In this document: positions 49,329 to 53,702 of the stretch, in pieces | Position numbering within the stretch: position 1 is the first letter of the stretch | Layout of the letters: each line of letters begins with the position of its first letter | Source of the DNA: Sphingomonadales bacterium | GTDB taxonomy: Bacteria > Pseudomonadota > Alphaproteobacteria > Sphingomonadales > Sphingomonadaceae | NCBI GenBank assembly: GCA_017302615.1 | Contig: JAFLDB010000014.1 | Location: 1-64,000 of the forward strand | Direction: 5' to 3' | Length of the DNA stretch: 64,000 nt | Translations under genes and position numbers: made by a program | Notes under the pieces: model-generated | What the model saw: the letters and a program-made list of their open reading frames with translations, nothing else | Told to the model about the DNA's origin: nothing | Database searches by the model: none

Positions 49329-49649
49329 TCAGGTGTGGTTCGGGCCGTCGTCATTGCCCTTGCCGCCACGACCGCGGTCGTCGCCGGCCGGGTCATCCGT
49401 ACCCCGGCCACGGCGCTTATCGCCTGCCGCATCGTCGGCACCGCGACCGCGACTGGTCTCGCCAGCGGCGTCGTCGGCACCCCGGCCCTGGCGAACGTGC
49501 CCGGCAGGATCGTCGCAACCGCGGCATTGCCGGACGTGACCAGCGGGATCATCGGCGCCCCGGCCCTGGCGGGCCTGGACTGCGGCGGGAACCGCCAGGG
49601 CAGCGACCAGAGCGGCGCCAAAAAGCGAAATGTTGGAAATCTTCGACAT
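49329..49649 (-). CDS. Secreted protein made of 13-residue repeats
   Basis: 106 residues from the ATG at 49649. The signal peptide M-S-K-I-S-N-I-S-L-F-G to A-V-Q-A ends at about residue 26. Residues 27-91 are five consecutive 13-residue units of the form R-x-x-R-G-x-D-D-x-A-G-x-x, followed by a partial sixth and a polar tail. The second unit contains a C-x-x-C (R-Q-C-R-G-C-D-D). The mature part is highly charged, with no hydrophobic core, so it is probably disordered, metal-binding or a multi-peptide precursor. Its promoter (49698-49722) has the same GGAAT-N16-CGTT layout as the sigma-factor operon. I recognise no family. Confidence 0.7.
   Translation of the reverse strand: MSKISNISLFGAALVAALAVPAAVQARQGRGADDPAGHVRQCRGCDDPAGHVRQGRGADDAAGETSRGRGADDAAGDKRRGRGTDDPAGDDRGRGGKGNDDGPNHT
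49377..49571 (-). repeat. Five tandem 39-bp coding repeats
   Basis: Five 39-bp units encode R-x-x-R-G-x-D-D-x-A-G-x-x. The DNA units differ at many third positions while the peptide is conserved, which points to selection on the protein rather than recent slippage. Confidence 0.75.
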
Positions 49650-49697
49650 GGAGTGTCTCCCATCTTGGTATCGGTCCGGGGGTTCGGACAAATGGGA

Positions 49698-49722
49698 AAC
49701 GGCAGCCCTGCGCAATTATTCC
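49698..49722 (-). promoter_or_regulatory. ECF-type promoter of the repeat-protein gene
   Basis: On the minus strand GGAAT (49722-49718) and CGTT (49701-49698) are separated by exactly 16 bases, about 50 bases upstream of the start codon. The same architecture recurs at 49763-49787, 52117-52141 and 52193-52217. Confidence 0.75.
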
Positions 49723-49762
49723 CGGGCTGAAGAAAAAAAGTTGCACCCTTATGTTTCAGCGC

Positions 49763-49787
49763 GGAATATTCGGTAACGGCGGGCGTT
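49763..49787 (+). promoter_or_regulatory. ECF-type promoter of the outer-membrane barrel gene
   Basis: GGAAT at 49763-49767 and CGTT at 49784-49787 are 16 bases apart, about 90 bases upstream of the ATG at 49877. It points away from the promoter at 49698-49722, so the two genes are divergently controlled by the same sigma factor. Confidence 0.75.
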
Positions 49788-49876
49788 TAACCGGCAGCAG
49801 CGGAATGGCTTTGGGCCGCTGCCAGTTGAACAGCCGGACTGCCCAATAGCGGCGTCCGGATCAGAGGGGAAAGATC

Positions 49877-50827
49877 ATGACCAAGAAATTCATGCTGCTG
49901 GCAGCGACCGCCATGCTGTTCGCGCCATCGTTCGCGCACGCTCAAGATGCCGCACCGGCAGCGTCACCCTCCTCATCGTCAGGTGATCCTGATCCCGGGG
50001 TGTTACGCCTTGGCATCGGGGTAAACTATTCCGAAGGCGACTATGGGGACATTGAGGATACCAGGGTGATCGCGGCTCCGGTCTCGCTGAAGTACAGCAA
50101 GGGCGGTTTCTCGGTTCGGGTGTCAGTACCTTTTATCCAGGCCGACGGTCCCGGTAGCCTGATCGACACGCCCGGCACCGCCGATGGCAGTGGCGGTGGC
50201 AGCGATGACAGCGGCGGGGATGACAGCGGCTCGAACAGCGGATCCGGCTCCTCTGGTTCGAATTCCGGATCGTCGGGTTCCGGATCATCGGGCGGCAGTC
50301 CGAACAGCGGCAGCGTTGTCACTGTTCCGGGTGGCACCAGCAACAAGCGAAGCGGAATGGGTGATGTTTCGGTCACGCTGGGATACTCGTTCGGACTGAG
50401 CGACAGAACCTTCCTTGATCTGACAGGCCGGGTAAAGCTGCCGACAGCTTCACAAGCCAAGCGCCTTGGCACCGGCGAAGTTGACTTCAGTGCCGGGGCA
50501 GACCTGGTGCAGGAATTTGGCCCCGCAACGTTTTACATCGGCGGCGCCCATAAGTTTCGCGGCAAACCAGCCGGCTCCACTCTGCGCGATACCTGGAGCT
50601 TTGCCGGAGGGCTGAGCTACCGCCTGCCGGGGCGAACCATGATCGGGGTCGACTACGACTGGCAGGAAGCATCTTTCCTGGGCAATGGCCCGTCAAGCGA
50701 GGTTACTGGCTGGGTCAACTTTGGCCTCACCCGCCGGGTGCGGATGCAGCTGTTCGCTTCAACCGGCACCAACGTTGACAGTACCGATTTTGCCGCAGGC
50801 CTTTCGCTAAGCGTGCGTCTGAACTGA
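49877..50827 (+). CDS. Outer-membrane beta-barrel protein with Ser/Gly/Asp-rich insert
   Basis: 316 residues. A signal peptide ends near residue 22 (S-F-A-H-A-Q-D). The rest shows alternating beta-strand patterns typical of a small transporter-like barrel (L-R-L-G-I-G-V-N-Y, V-S-L-K-Y-S-K-G-G-F-S-V-R, then L-D-L-T-G-R-V-K-L-P), ending L-S-L-S-V-R-L-N. Residues about 103-148 are a low-complexity Ser/Gly/Asp insert, presumably a surface or periplasmic loop. GAGGGGA lies before the start. It is expressed from an ECF promoter shared in type with the sigma operon and the subtilase, so barrel and protease probably act together at the cell surface. Confidence 0.8.
   Translation: MTKKFMLLAATAMLFAPSFAHAQDAAPAASPSSSSGDPDPGVLRLGIGVNYSEGDYGDIEDTRVIAAPVSLKYSKGGFSVRVSVPFIQADGPGSLIDTPGTADGSGGGSDDSGGDDSGSNSGSGSSGSNSGSSGSGSSGGSPNSGSVVTVPGGTSNKRSGMGDVSVTLGYSFGLSDRTFLDLTGRVKLPTASQAKRLGTGEVDFSAGADLVQEFGPATFYIGGAHKFRGKPAGSTLRDTWSFAGGLSYRLPGRTMIGVDYDWQEASFLGNGPSSEVTGWVNFGLTRRVRMQLFASTGTNVDSTDFAAGLSLSVRLN
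50183..50320 (+). repeat. Ser/Gly/Asp low-complexity coding stretch
   Basis: About 138 bases of short-period sequence (GGCAGC, GATGACAGCGG, GGATCCGGC type units) encode a Ser/Gly/Asp-rich loop inside the barrel protein. It is likely length-variable between strains through slippage. Confidence 0.6.
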
Positions 50828-50847
50828 TTGCCAGGACGGCCGGCAAG

Positions 50848-50880
50848 AATGGGGCGGTCGCCTTAGCGGTCGCCCCATTT
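50848..50880. terminator. Bidirectional terminator; anti-sigma stop codon lies in its loop
   Basis: AATGGGGCG (50848-50856) and CGCCCCATT (50871-50879) form a nine-bp stem, extended inside by CGC/GCG. It ends the plus-strand barrel gene, followed by T. The minus-strand anti-sigma gene's TAA (50863-50865) sits inside the loop, so the last codons of that gene form part of the hairpin. Confidence 0.65.
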
Positions 50881-51582
50881 GCTCGCGATTAGCGCCGCTT
50901 CGTCAGCCGCTCCCAATGGATCGGCCGTGCCGAGGCGGGCATTGGCAGCAGCGATCCCAGTGTTGTCGGTGCCGCCAGCCAACTGGATCTCGTCGGGCTT
51001 TGTCGCTGGTGCCGCCTCAACCTCAGCCTCTACCTTCCAGCCTTGCGGTTCGCGGCAAGCAAGACCGGCGACGTCACCGATCCGGTATTCGCGGCACCAG
51101 CGCCCATCAGCGGCCCGCGCGGTCAGCACCGGCTCGATCATCCGGCCATCGTCGAGCTGTGCTTGCTGCAAAGCGGGCGTGCTATCGAGCGCAAGTGACA
51201 AACCGCCATCCTGCGGGTCTTCCGGCGGACGCCCGACAACCAGCAGAACCAACGCGAGGCCGGCTGCCAGTGCACCGCCAACCGGCACCCAGCGCTTTTG
51301 CCACCAGGCGGGATTGTCATTGGCTGCTGGCGGCATGGCTGGCGCAACAGCAGTGCTCTCGGCAAGGCCCATCTGGGCTAGCCATTCCGGATCGATCGGC
51401 TCAGTAGCCAGTGGCGCCAGAGCGTCAGCAATTTGTCGATCATTGGCCCGCCAGGCCGCTGCTTGCTCGGCCAGGGCCGGGTTGCCAGCCATCTCTGCTT
51501 CGAAGGCGGCAGCATCGGCGGGGTTCATTGCCCCATCAAGCCAGGCGGCCAGCCGTTCATCTGTGCCTCTGCGGTCAGTCAT
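50863..51582 (-). CDS. Membrane-bound anti-sigma factor
   Basis: 239 residues from the ATG at 51582, overlapping the sigma gene by eight bases. The N-terminal cytoplasmic domain (about 1-60) has the anti-sigma opening L-A-A-W-L-D-G-A-M-N-P-A-D-A-A-A-F-E-A and the FecR/RskA-like helical pattern. I see no zinc-binding H-x3-C-x2-C. One transmembrane helix lies at about 99-117, followed by a periplasmic domain with two cysteines (R-W-C-R-E-Y and L-A-C-R-E-P) that may form a disulfide. Such a layout suggests signal sensing in the periplasm and release of the sigma factor by proteolysis or conformational change. Confidence 0.85.
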   Translation of the reverse strand: MTDRRGTDERLAAWLDGAMNPADAAAFEAEMAGNPALAEQAAAWRANDRQIADALAPLATEPIDPEWLAQMGLAESTAVAPAMPPAANDNPAWWQKRWVPVGGALAAGLALVLLVVGRPPEDPQDGGLSLALDSTPALQQAQLDDGRMIEPVLTARAADGRWCREYRIGDVAGLACREPQGWKVEAEVEAAPATKPDEIQLAGGTDNTGIAAANARLGTADPLGAADEAALIASKWGDR

Positions 51583-52102
51583 TGCCTGTCCCCTGGCTTC
51601 GGCCGACAACCGCATCGATGCGCGCGCGGGCGCGGGCTAGCCGGCTCATAATCGTTCCAACCGGAACTTCTAGCACCTCCGCTGCCTCGCGGTAGCTCAG
51701 CCCCTCGACCACCACCAGCAAGAAGGCACTGCGCTGTTCTTCCGGCAGAGCCTGCAAGGCGCGCTGCGCAGCGGCCAAGTCCGACCGGTTCTCCACCGTT
51801 TCGCGCCCATCCTCGCCACGTGTTTCGGCAATTTCGTCAATGTCCACTTGCGTTCCACGCCGGCCAACAGACCGGATGGCGTCGATGTGCAGATTGCGCG
51901 CGATCCGGAACATCCAAGCGTCGACCCGGGTCCCCGCCTCAAACAGTTCGGCGCGGCCAAGGGCACGTTCCACTGTGGACTGCATCAAGTCGTCTCCATT
52001 TTCGGCATGACCGGTCAGACCCCGACAAAACCGGCGTAGTCGAGGCAACACGGCGATGATCTCTTCCCGCATTGCCTGGCTGTCCGGACCGGGATCGGCC
52101 AT
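51575..52102 (-). CDS. ECF-family RNA polymerase sigma factor
   Basis: 175 residues from the ATG at 52102, preceded by GGAGATGG. Region 2 shows the A-E-N-G-D-D-L-M-Q-S-T-V-E-R-A segment for core binding and -10 recognition. Region 4 shows L-P-E-E-Q-R-S-A-F-L-L-V-V-V-E-G-L-S-Y-R-E-A-A, then V-P-V-G-T-I-M-S-R-L-A-R-A-R for -35 recognition. Only regions 2 and 4 are present, the ECF hallmark. Its own promoter (52117-52141) has the same GGAAT-N16-CGTT layout as its neighbours, so it is very probably autoregulated. Overlap with the anti-sigma gene keeps the two in balance. Confidence 0.93.
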   Translation of the reverse strand: MADPGPDSQAMREEIIAVLPRLRRFCRGLTGHAENGDDLMQSTVERALGRAELFEAGTRVDAWMFRIARNLHIDAIRSVGRRGTQVDIDEIAETRGEDGRETVENRSDLAAAQRALQALPEEQRSAFLLVVVEGLSYREAAEVLEVPVGTIMSRLARARARIDAVVGRSQGTGND

Positions 52103-52116
52103 TCCATCTCCTGTCA

Positions 52117-52141
52117 AACGACCTGCACGGCACAAAATTCC
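52117..52141 (-). promoter_or_regulatory. ECF-type autoregulatory promoter of the sigma/anti-sigma operon
   Basis: On the minus strand GGAAT (52141-52137) and CGTT (52120-52117) are separated by 16 bases, 15 bases upstream of the sigma start codon. Confidence 0.78.
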
Positions 52142-52192
52142 CGCCGATGAGAGCGATTTTTTGCCGTGCTCAAGCGCATTTGCAAGTATGGT

Positions 52193-52217
52193 GGAATAAG
52201 TTTGCGTACATTGCGTT
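52193..52217 (+). promoter_or_regulatory. ECF-type promoter of the subtilase gene
   Basis: GGAAT (52193-52197) and CGTT (52214-52217) are separated by 16 bases, 48 bases upstream of the ATG at 52266. It is divergent from the sigma promoter at 52117-52141. Confidence 0.78.
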
Positions 52218-52265
52218 TCATCAACACGCCGGCCGCGTGTGAGCGGGCGCAACGGAGGCTTGGCC

Positions 52266-53702
52266 ATGAACCTCAAGACCGGAACTTCGCTGACGGCATT
52301 TGTGACCGCAGCTTTGCTGGTTGGTCTGCATGCGGCCGCCCCAGCGCACGAACGCGATCCCGATGTTTCCTCCCGGGCCGAGGAACGACTCGACAAGGCC
52401 AATCGCGACATCGCCGACCGTGCGGCCAAGCGCGATAGGGAGTATTCACAAGAGCGAGCCCGGATCGAAGCCGATACGCTGAAGGATCCCCGAAAAGCCG
52501 ATGAACTGCAAAAGCTTGATGCGGATTATGCCGAAGAAACCCGCAAGCTGAACGAGGACGCGGACAAGGCGCAGGAGGATTTCCTAGAAGAAAGCGCCAA
52601 AGAAGCCGAGGAGTTGGCCGAGAAGGGTGAAGACAATTCTGGTGATGGCAGCAGCAAGCACATGCGCGACCTCGGCCAGAGCGAGGGCGCCGAGTACGAC
52701 GACAAGGGATATCCGGTCCGCCGCGGTGAAGTAGTCGGGATCGACCTTTCCCCGGCAACCCTTGCCAAGGCAGAGGCAAAAGGCTTCAAGATCCTTGGCC
52801 GGGAACGCCTTCAAACTCTTGATCGGGAAGTGATCCGCCTGGCCGCGCCGCCGGGAATGGATGCCCGCACCGCTTTGCGCGAACTGCGTGTGATCGATCC
52901 GACGGCTGTCATCGACCTTGTTCACTATTACGGCCTCAACCTAACAGCGGGCGGCAAAGGTCAGCCGGTTCGTGCGAATGGGATGCCGCGCTTCTCGTCT
53001 CGAAAGGTGATGGTGGGTGTGATCGACACGGCAATTGTTCCTCATGCCGGTCTCAACGGCGCACAGATCACCGTTTGGCCAGCCGGAAATCTGACCGGCG
53101 CCCCGGTCGCACATGGCACCGCAGTCGCTTCGCTGCTGGCAGCTGAAGGGCAGGCGCAGATCTTTTCCGCCAACATCTTTCGGGGCAGCGCCGGGCGACC
53201 CTTTACCTCGGCCGACGTCATCGCCGACGCGTTGGAATGGATGGTTCGGATGGACGTGCCAACCATCAACATGAGCCTGGCCGGGCCGCGCAATGCTATT
53301 CTCGATCAATTGCTACGCGACGCGATTGCGCATGGGCGGACGATTGTGGCGGCCGCCGGAAACGGGGGCCCAGCGGCACCGCCGGCTTACCCGGCCGCAG
53401 TACCGGGGGTTGTGGCGGTGACTGCCGTCGACAAGGATCTGCGGATCTACCGTTATGCCAATCGCGGTCGATATATCACTGTTGCCGCAAGAGGGGTCGA
53501 CGTGATGGCCGCCCGGGCTCCCGGAGGGTTTGCACGGTTCAGCGGCACCTCGTTTGCCACTCCCCACGTTACCGGCTGGATCGCGCGCTGCCGCAGTGCT
53601 GGCAAAACAGCCCGAGGTTGTGAAGCGGCCCTGATTAGATCGGCCCGAGATCTCGGTGCTCCAGGGCGCGACAACATTTTTGGGCTTGGCTTCGTGGAGT
53701 AA
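52266..53702 (+). CDS. Secreted subtilisin-like serine protease (S8 family) with coiled-coil prodomain
   Basis: 478 residues from the ATG at 52266. A signal peptide ends near residue 27 (A-A-A-P-A-H-E). Residues about 30-125 are highly charged and heptad-patterned, a likely coiled coil, followed by a linker and the S8 domain. The catalytic triad is Asp254 in G-V-I-D-T-A, His283 in V-A-H-G-T-A-V-A-S-L, and Ser429 in S-G-T-S-F-A-T-P-H; Asn366 in A-A-A-G-N-G-G stabilises the oxyanion. The protein ends with N-I-F-G-L-G-F-V-E and has no barrel, so it is released or periplasmic. The ECF promoter at 52193-52217 places it in the sigma regulon with the repeat protein and the barrel. Confidence 0.93.
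   Translation: MNLKTGTSLTAFVTAALLVGLHAAAPAHERDPDVSSRAEERLDKANRDIADRAAKRDREYSQERARIEADTLKDPRKADELQKLDADYAEETRKLNEDADKAQEDFLEESAKEAEELAEKGEDNSGDGSSKHMRDLGQSEGAEYDDKGYPVRRGEVVGIDLSPATLAKAEAKGFKILGRERLQTLDREVIRLAAPPGMDARTALRELRVIDPTAVIDLVHYYGLNLTAGGKGQPVRANGMPRFSSRKVMVGVIDTAIVPHAGLNGAQITVWPAGNLTGAPVAHGTAVASLLAAEGQAQIFSANIFRGSAGRPFTSADVIADALEWMVRMDVPTINMSLAGPRNAILDQLLRDAIAHGRTIVAAAGNGGPAAPPAYPAAVPGVVAVTAVDKDLRIYRYANRGRYITVAARGVDVMAARAPGGFARFSGTSFATPHVTGWIARCRSAGKTARGCEAALIRSARDLGAPGRDNIFGLGFVE

Follow-up and report, generated by a model that had tools for sequence, protein, structure and literature searches.

We describe a cluster of five genes from a Sphingomonadales bacterium (GenBank assembly GCA_017302615.1, contig JAFLDB010000014.1, positions 1 to 64,000; this whole 64,000-nucleotide stretch is referred to as the window), in which genes for an extracytoplasmic function (ECF) sigma factor and a membrane anti-sigma factor stand beside those for a subtilase of the S8 family, an outer-membrane beta-barrel and a small repeat protein. 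Four sites of one promoter-like layout lie among these genes, and we ask here which sigma factor is likely to use them. In order along the window, the features are as follows:

49329..49649, minus strand: repeat protein gene, 106 amino acids, with a signal-like start and charged RGRGADD-type repeats; no Pfam match
49698..49722, minus strand: predicted ECF-type promoter of the repeat gene, GGAATA-N15-CGTT, 48 nucleotides (nt) from the ATG
49763..49787, plus strand: predicted ECF-type promoter of the barrel gene, GGAATA-N15-CGTT, 89 nt from the ATG
49877..50827, plus strand: outer-membrane beta-barrel gene, 316 amino acids; in the predicted structure, 12 long strands, a FapF/COG4313 fold and a Gly/Ser/Asp-rich insertion
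50863..51582, minus strand: membrane anti-sigma gene, 239 amino acids, comprising an anti-sigma-like N-terminal part, a single hydrophobic helix and a periplasmic domain in which two cysteines are invariant
51575..52102, minus strand: ECF sigma factor gene, 175 amino acids, regions 2 and 4 only
52117..52141, minus strand: predicted ECF-type promoter of the sigma/anti-sigma operon, GGAATT-N15-CGTT, 14 nt from the ATG
52193..52217, plus strand: predicted ECF-type promoter of the S8 gene, GGAATA-N15-CGTT, 48 nt from the ATG
52266..53702, plus strand: S8 subtilase gene, 478 amino acids; the start is signal-like, the N-terminal region charged, and the catalytic residues D254, H283 and S429 are intact

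The original prediction, made from the window alone, held that GGAAT-N16-CGTT occurs four times in 4.4 kb, each time within about 90 bases of a start codon. Exact matching, by which we define the site set throughout, recovers all four with the coordinates and strands listed above, at 14-89 nt upstream of the likely start codons (counted from the last base of CGTT). There is no fifth exact match in the 64 kb, and 100 shuffled versions of the window contained on average 0.49 sites per 64 kb, with a largest count of 3 and none reaching 4. The sites form two back-to-back pairs, one in the interval that separates the repeat and barrel genes, the second in that between sigma operon and S8 gene; the -35 variant is GGAATA at three of the four and GGAATT at the sigma promoter.

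The motif is rare in the genome as a whole, as the prediction required: the 3.02 Mb assembly (99.84% complete) holds 13 GGAAT-N16-CGTT sites, compared with 4 for the reversed pattern, and they are concentrated in the cluster. At the density of the other nine, four sites in 4.4 kb have a Poisson probability of about 1e-9, a post hoc figure for a region that was picked by the motif. We considered these nine as a wider regulon and rejected the idea, seven of them lying within genes and two preceding genes for TadG-like and ParE-like products (our own reading of the open reading frames). The sole other GGAATA-N15-CGTT of the window genome (L001:1501-1525, G000 C1:224947-224971; L, G and C are our labels for loci, genomes and contigs) stands shortly upstream of the likely start of a gene whose product we read as a Tad pilus TadG-type protein. 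Genome G050 has two tandem GGAATA-N15-CGTT sites, 215 bp apart and distant from its cluster (L085:1501-1525 and L092:1501-1525; C2:759861 and 760076), the second of which lies about 60 nt ahead of a small open reading frame whose start is signal-like and which may be an unlinked member of the regulon.

With the S8 protein as query, 298 family genomes were searched; we inspected 40 regions surrounding the matches and, in addition, L044, a Novosphingobium contig and the single close relative from a separate S8-protein scan. All five genes are present in six relatives (L044-L049), giving seven window-type loci when the window is counted. The S8 and repeat gene sites are kept in 7/7 of these, and the sigma operon site is exact in 6/7, with CGTA in place of CGTT in L047. 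The barrel gene has its site in 4/4 loci where it diverges from the repeat gene and in 0/3 where it lies downstream of that gene on the same strand (L047-L049, in which the gene order has changed); the sites thus track transcription units. Comparison of the window with L044 finds 35/36 core bases identical, vs 221/354 in the remainder of the two intergenic regions, so that the second expectation of the prediction, conserved sites in unconserved surroundings, is borne out as well. The sixth base, which is outside the search pattern, is A in 22/24 sites.

Beyond this lineage, a core of ECF sigma factor, membrane anti-sigma factor and divergent S8 subtilase is widespread in the family, and S8 is the one non-sigma gene that accompanies the sigma gene in nearly all loci. 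The core, as the window alone could not show, is therefore not unique; what is lineage-specific is the full set of five genes (the RGRGADD repeat protein occurs in all seven window-type loci and was absent from every other locus examined). In most other loci the interval between the sigma and S8 genes carries a 32-bp palindrome, GGATKAAACG-N12-CGTTTMATCC. With at most one mismatch it is found in 100/397 family genomes, nearly always once, with 0 for the reversed control; among the 298 genomes searched it occurs in 72/96 with an S8 match vs 1/202 without, and in that odd genome (G143) it lies close to a contig end. Three genomes of a class-wide sample carry it outside the family. The sigma gene lies on one side and the S8 gene on the other in 22/22 palindrome loci checked, including three from outside the family, and for both genes the candidate starts lie close to the CGTT box that reads in the same direction.

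An extra copy of the motif, one-way and non-palindromic, lies 2-47 bp past the S8 stop codon in 13/23 palindrome loci. Where a downstream frame was found, it mostly encodes, about 50 nt on, a Gly/Ser/Ala/Asn-rich protein of 240-330 amino acids with a signal-like start; two of three such proteins tested gave weak PRC-barrel matches. One-way copies ahead of genes for secreted proteins speak for the motif being a directional promoter, and they show that an exported low-complexity protein accompanies the sigma factor and S8 in both promoter classes.

We further find that promoter class follows the lineage of the sigma factor. All 12 sigma factors of the GGAAT (non-palindromic) class form one clade, with support 97/97, separate from those of the GGAT palindrome, and on the midpoint-rooted sigma tree promoter class requires five label changes, compared with 15.2 in shuffles. 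A methionine in the GT[IV]MSR motif of region 4.2 is present in 12/12 GGAAT-class sigma factors and in none of the GGAT class, a correlation that is consistent with direct readout of the promoter, without proving it, and that partly reflects shared descent. Genome G002 carries both systems, one of the GGAAT and one of the GGAT class, with promoters to match, and L076, from the genus of the window, has intermediate boxes, GGAATAAACG-N12-CGTTTCTTCC. Because promoter class tracks both sigma phylogeny and region 4.2, the local sigma factor is the likely user of the sites. Four loci of the GGAAT class (L050, L054, L056 and L057) form a sister group; the S8 protein of three of them has an Asp/Gly-rich N-terminal stretch, genes nearby encode a MobB-like NTPase, porins, a 7TM_transglut protein and an ATPgrasp_ST protein, and some genes have GGAAT-N17-CGTT, one base longer, close by.

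The gene products fit a predicted autoregulated ECF/membrane anti-sigma module: the sigma factor has regions 2 and 4 only, the anti-sigma gene starts within the end of the sigma gene and encodes a class I-type N-terminus and one transmembrane helix (assigned by inspection), and a conserved ECF-type promoter sequence precedes the operon. Matches among 26 anti-sigma homologues are to zf-HC2 (22), RseA_N (6) and, weakly, NepR (4), the window protein's own match being below cut-off; its NCBIfam antisigma match (E 5.8e-06) is also under the cut-off of that model. C163 and C176 are invariant in the 26 homologues, and we infer a disulfide between them. The periplasmic part was modelled with four strands and two helices; a Foldseek search with this domain returned nothing significant (best E 0.35), and likeness to the 17-kDa antigen (DUF5061) is limited to two weak matches. 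The barrel model has 12 strands of at least 10 residues at moderate confidence, and its best solved structural relatives tie (FapF, a channel for amyloid export, Z 22.8; a COG4313 channel, Z 22.6). Genome G269 has a second barrel copy away from the sigma cluster (C1:367545-368360; L170, L172). In L047, L048 and L049, RGRGRGRGG runs in the barrel insertion resemble the C-terminus of the repeat protein of the same loci, a hint of a relation between loop and cargo.

Site rarity, conservation across loci and the tracking of class with lineage together support the proposal, already part of the original prediction, that the sigma factor at 51575-52102 would drive all four units, and on this sequence evidence we consider it probable that the regulatory part of the cluster is an ECF switch with autoregulation, governing a proposed protease/export module of the envelope. 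The membrane anti-sigma factor would hold the ECF sigma factor inactive until a signal on its cysteine-containing periplasmic domain releases it, upon which the sigma factor would transcribe its own operon from the GGAATT promoter, in positive feedback, and the genes for S8, the FapF/COG4313-like barrel and the secreted repeat protein from GGAATA-N15-CGTT. Both the autoregulation by the local sigma factor and its inhibition are predictions. Switches of this kind, set by an envelope signal and reinforced by positive feedback, are standard among ECF pairs; that the signal here comes from the envelope, and that the outputs form one envelope module, we infer. What the outputs do is more conjectural. 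The effector step that we find most likely, though with considerable doubt, has S8 processing the exported repeat protein or removing misfolded proteins of the envelope; the barrel would be the channel for export, in loose analogy to Fap. Candidate S8 targets would be the repeat protein, misfolded envelope proteins or the anti-sigma factor, and analogy with FapF, FapD and FapC (PMC5557850) would make the barrel an exporter of the repeat protein, a role as small-molecule channel being the alternative.

Several points weigh against this reading. The motif was derived from the same four sites, so its nine core bases are invariant by construction in the site comparison. Six sigma-70 genes exceed the cut-off in the genome, three of them ECF-like by our own reading, which leaves two further ECF-like sigma factors as candidate users. 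The barrel model is of moderate quality (predicted local distance difference test score, pLDDT, 69), and COG4313 channels, implicated in the uptake of hydrophobic molecules (PMC4493636), have the same fold. The barrel is absent from most palindrome relatives and the RGADD repeat protein from all of those read, which places both outside the core. Finally, NepR has no match in the genome, a weak absence given that the model is short (35 positions) and matches in one control genome only.

An alternative, in whose favour the two further ECF-like sigma factors speak, is that the four sites are promoters of another sigma factor, chiefly an EcfG-type general stress sigma factor, and that the neighbouring one has other targets. 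The boxes do resemble the GGAAC and CGTT boxes of EcfG (PMC7083833, PMC6599016), the local sigma factor resembles the sigma-like domains of PhyR, and some anti-sigma homologues match NepR, if weakly. EcfG promoters, however, carry GGAAC with AAC almost invariant (PMC7083833), as does the Sphingomonas melonis motif (GGAAC; PMC6599016), whereas all 24 sites have T at the position of that C; GGAAC-N16/17-CGTT is not enriched genome-wide (47 vs 62 for the reversed control), which together with the PhyR result led us to reject EcfG as the user. PhyR is represented in the 99.84% complete genome by separate sigma-like or receiver stretches only, none over cut-off, and with no full-length PhyR and EcfG boxes of the GGAAC type a general stress sigma factor is an unlikely user. 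Since promoter class also follows the phylogeny of the neighbouring sigma factor, we judge this alternative improbable. The PhyR/EcfG stress response is usual in the class and may have been lost from this genome. We give even less credence to the inverted pairs and the relatives' palindrome being operators of a dimeric regulator. The palindrome is near-perfect and normally present once per locus, and its 10-bp arms, 22 bp apart centre to centre, have a geometry common for dimer operators, but the one-way copies with the same spacing that point at a third gene in 13/23 palindrome loci disfavour this explanation, the window-type sites are one-way and each faces a gene start, and no shared regulator gene besides sigma and anti-sigma was found among the loci.

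Use of the sites by the local sigma factor is also compatible with a different division of labour, in which S8 acts mainly upstream, as part of sensing, by cutting the anti-sigma factor, with the barrel as an ordinary channel for small molecules. Anti-sigma proteolysis is the usual activation route, S8 is found with the sigma gene in nearly all loci, and the COG4313 match is as good as that to FapF (Z 22.6 vs 22.8); yet the S8 gene is among the predicted targets, as is, in many palindrome loci, that of another exported protein, which fits an output role. We consider this arrangement rather unlikely, and S8 may be both output and feedback. Chance clustering of four short matches has in its favour that only nine core bases are fixed and that the pattern was noticed after reading the sequence; the shuffles, the excess over the flanks and the conservation of all units in six further loci contradict it and make its probability negligible.

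Extending the local-sigma reading to the family, we tentatively suggest that these loci may represent an undescribed, family-wide envelope system of the Sphingomonadaceae. An ECF switch would place a subtilase and a low-complexity protein, both exported, under joint control, and in most members the sigma and subtilase genes would share one palindromic two-way promoter, the -35 for each direction overlapping the opposite -10 region; the window lineage would use separate GGAATA promoters for these two genes, with a different secreted cargo and a FapF-like channel under the same control. A sigma factor whose targets found are mostly adjacent, with two promoter classes that follow its lineage, offers a direct view of how a sigma factor and its promoters change together, and the palindrome, found in roughly a quarter of family genomes and normally as a single copy per locus, allows a compact test of one site serving two directions. 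That S8 recurs together with a low-complexity protein that is exported suggests an envelope function for which the literature searched, with partial coverage, gave no description.

Searches of that literature likewise gave no match for an ECF sigma factor with an S8 partner, a two-way ECF promoter or the same motif, an absence that at partial coverage argues only weakly for novelty. Subtilases do occur in the gene context of ECF54, a group described as lacking an anti-sigma factor (PMC8999054). Comparison with known systems shows partial likeness to several. With EcfG-NepR-PhyR (ECF15) of the Alphaproteobacteria the cluster shares a PhyR-like sigma factor, the weak NepR matches of some anti-sigma homologues, a -10 CGTT, 16-nt spacing and positive autoregulation (here predicted), whereas its -35 is GGAAT or GGATK and not GGAAC, its anti-sigma factor is membrane-anchored with a periplasmic domain, full-length PhyR was not found and the targets found are few and mostly local. 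RpoE-RseA, with its class I membrane anti-sigma factor, has in common the sigma/anti-sigma operon, an RseA_N-like N-terminus (in six homologues), a single hydrophobic helix and autoregulation (again predicted); here the periplasmic domain is another one, with two invariant cysteines, there is a dedicated S8 partner, and no large unlinked regulon was found. Fap (FapF barrel, FapD periplasmic protease, FapB/FapC substrates) likewise combines a 12-stranded barrel fold, an exported protease and a disordered repeat protein, but the fold is shared with COG4313 channels and does not single out Fap, the protease of the cluster is S8 and not C39 (for FapD, the cluster alone was examined), the repeats are charged RGADD and not amyloid, the barrel lacks a long N-terminal coiled coil and control would be by an ECF sigma factor. 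The COG4313/Phenol_MetA_deg channels have the same fold as the barrel, which here bears a Gly/Ser/Asp-rich insertion and is clustered with a sigma factor, a protease and a repeat protein. Against the background of the palindrome relatives, the window lineage stands out by its separate GGAATA promoters, the repeat protein and the FapF/COG4313-like barrel.

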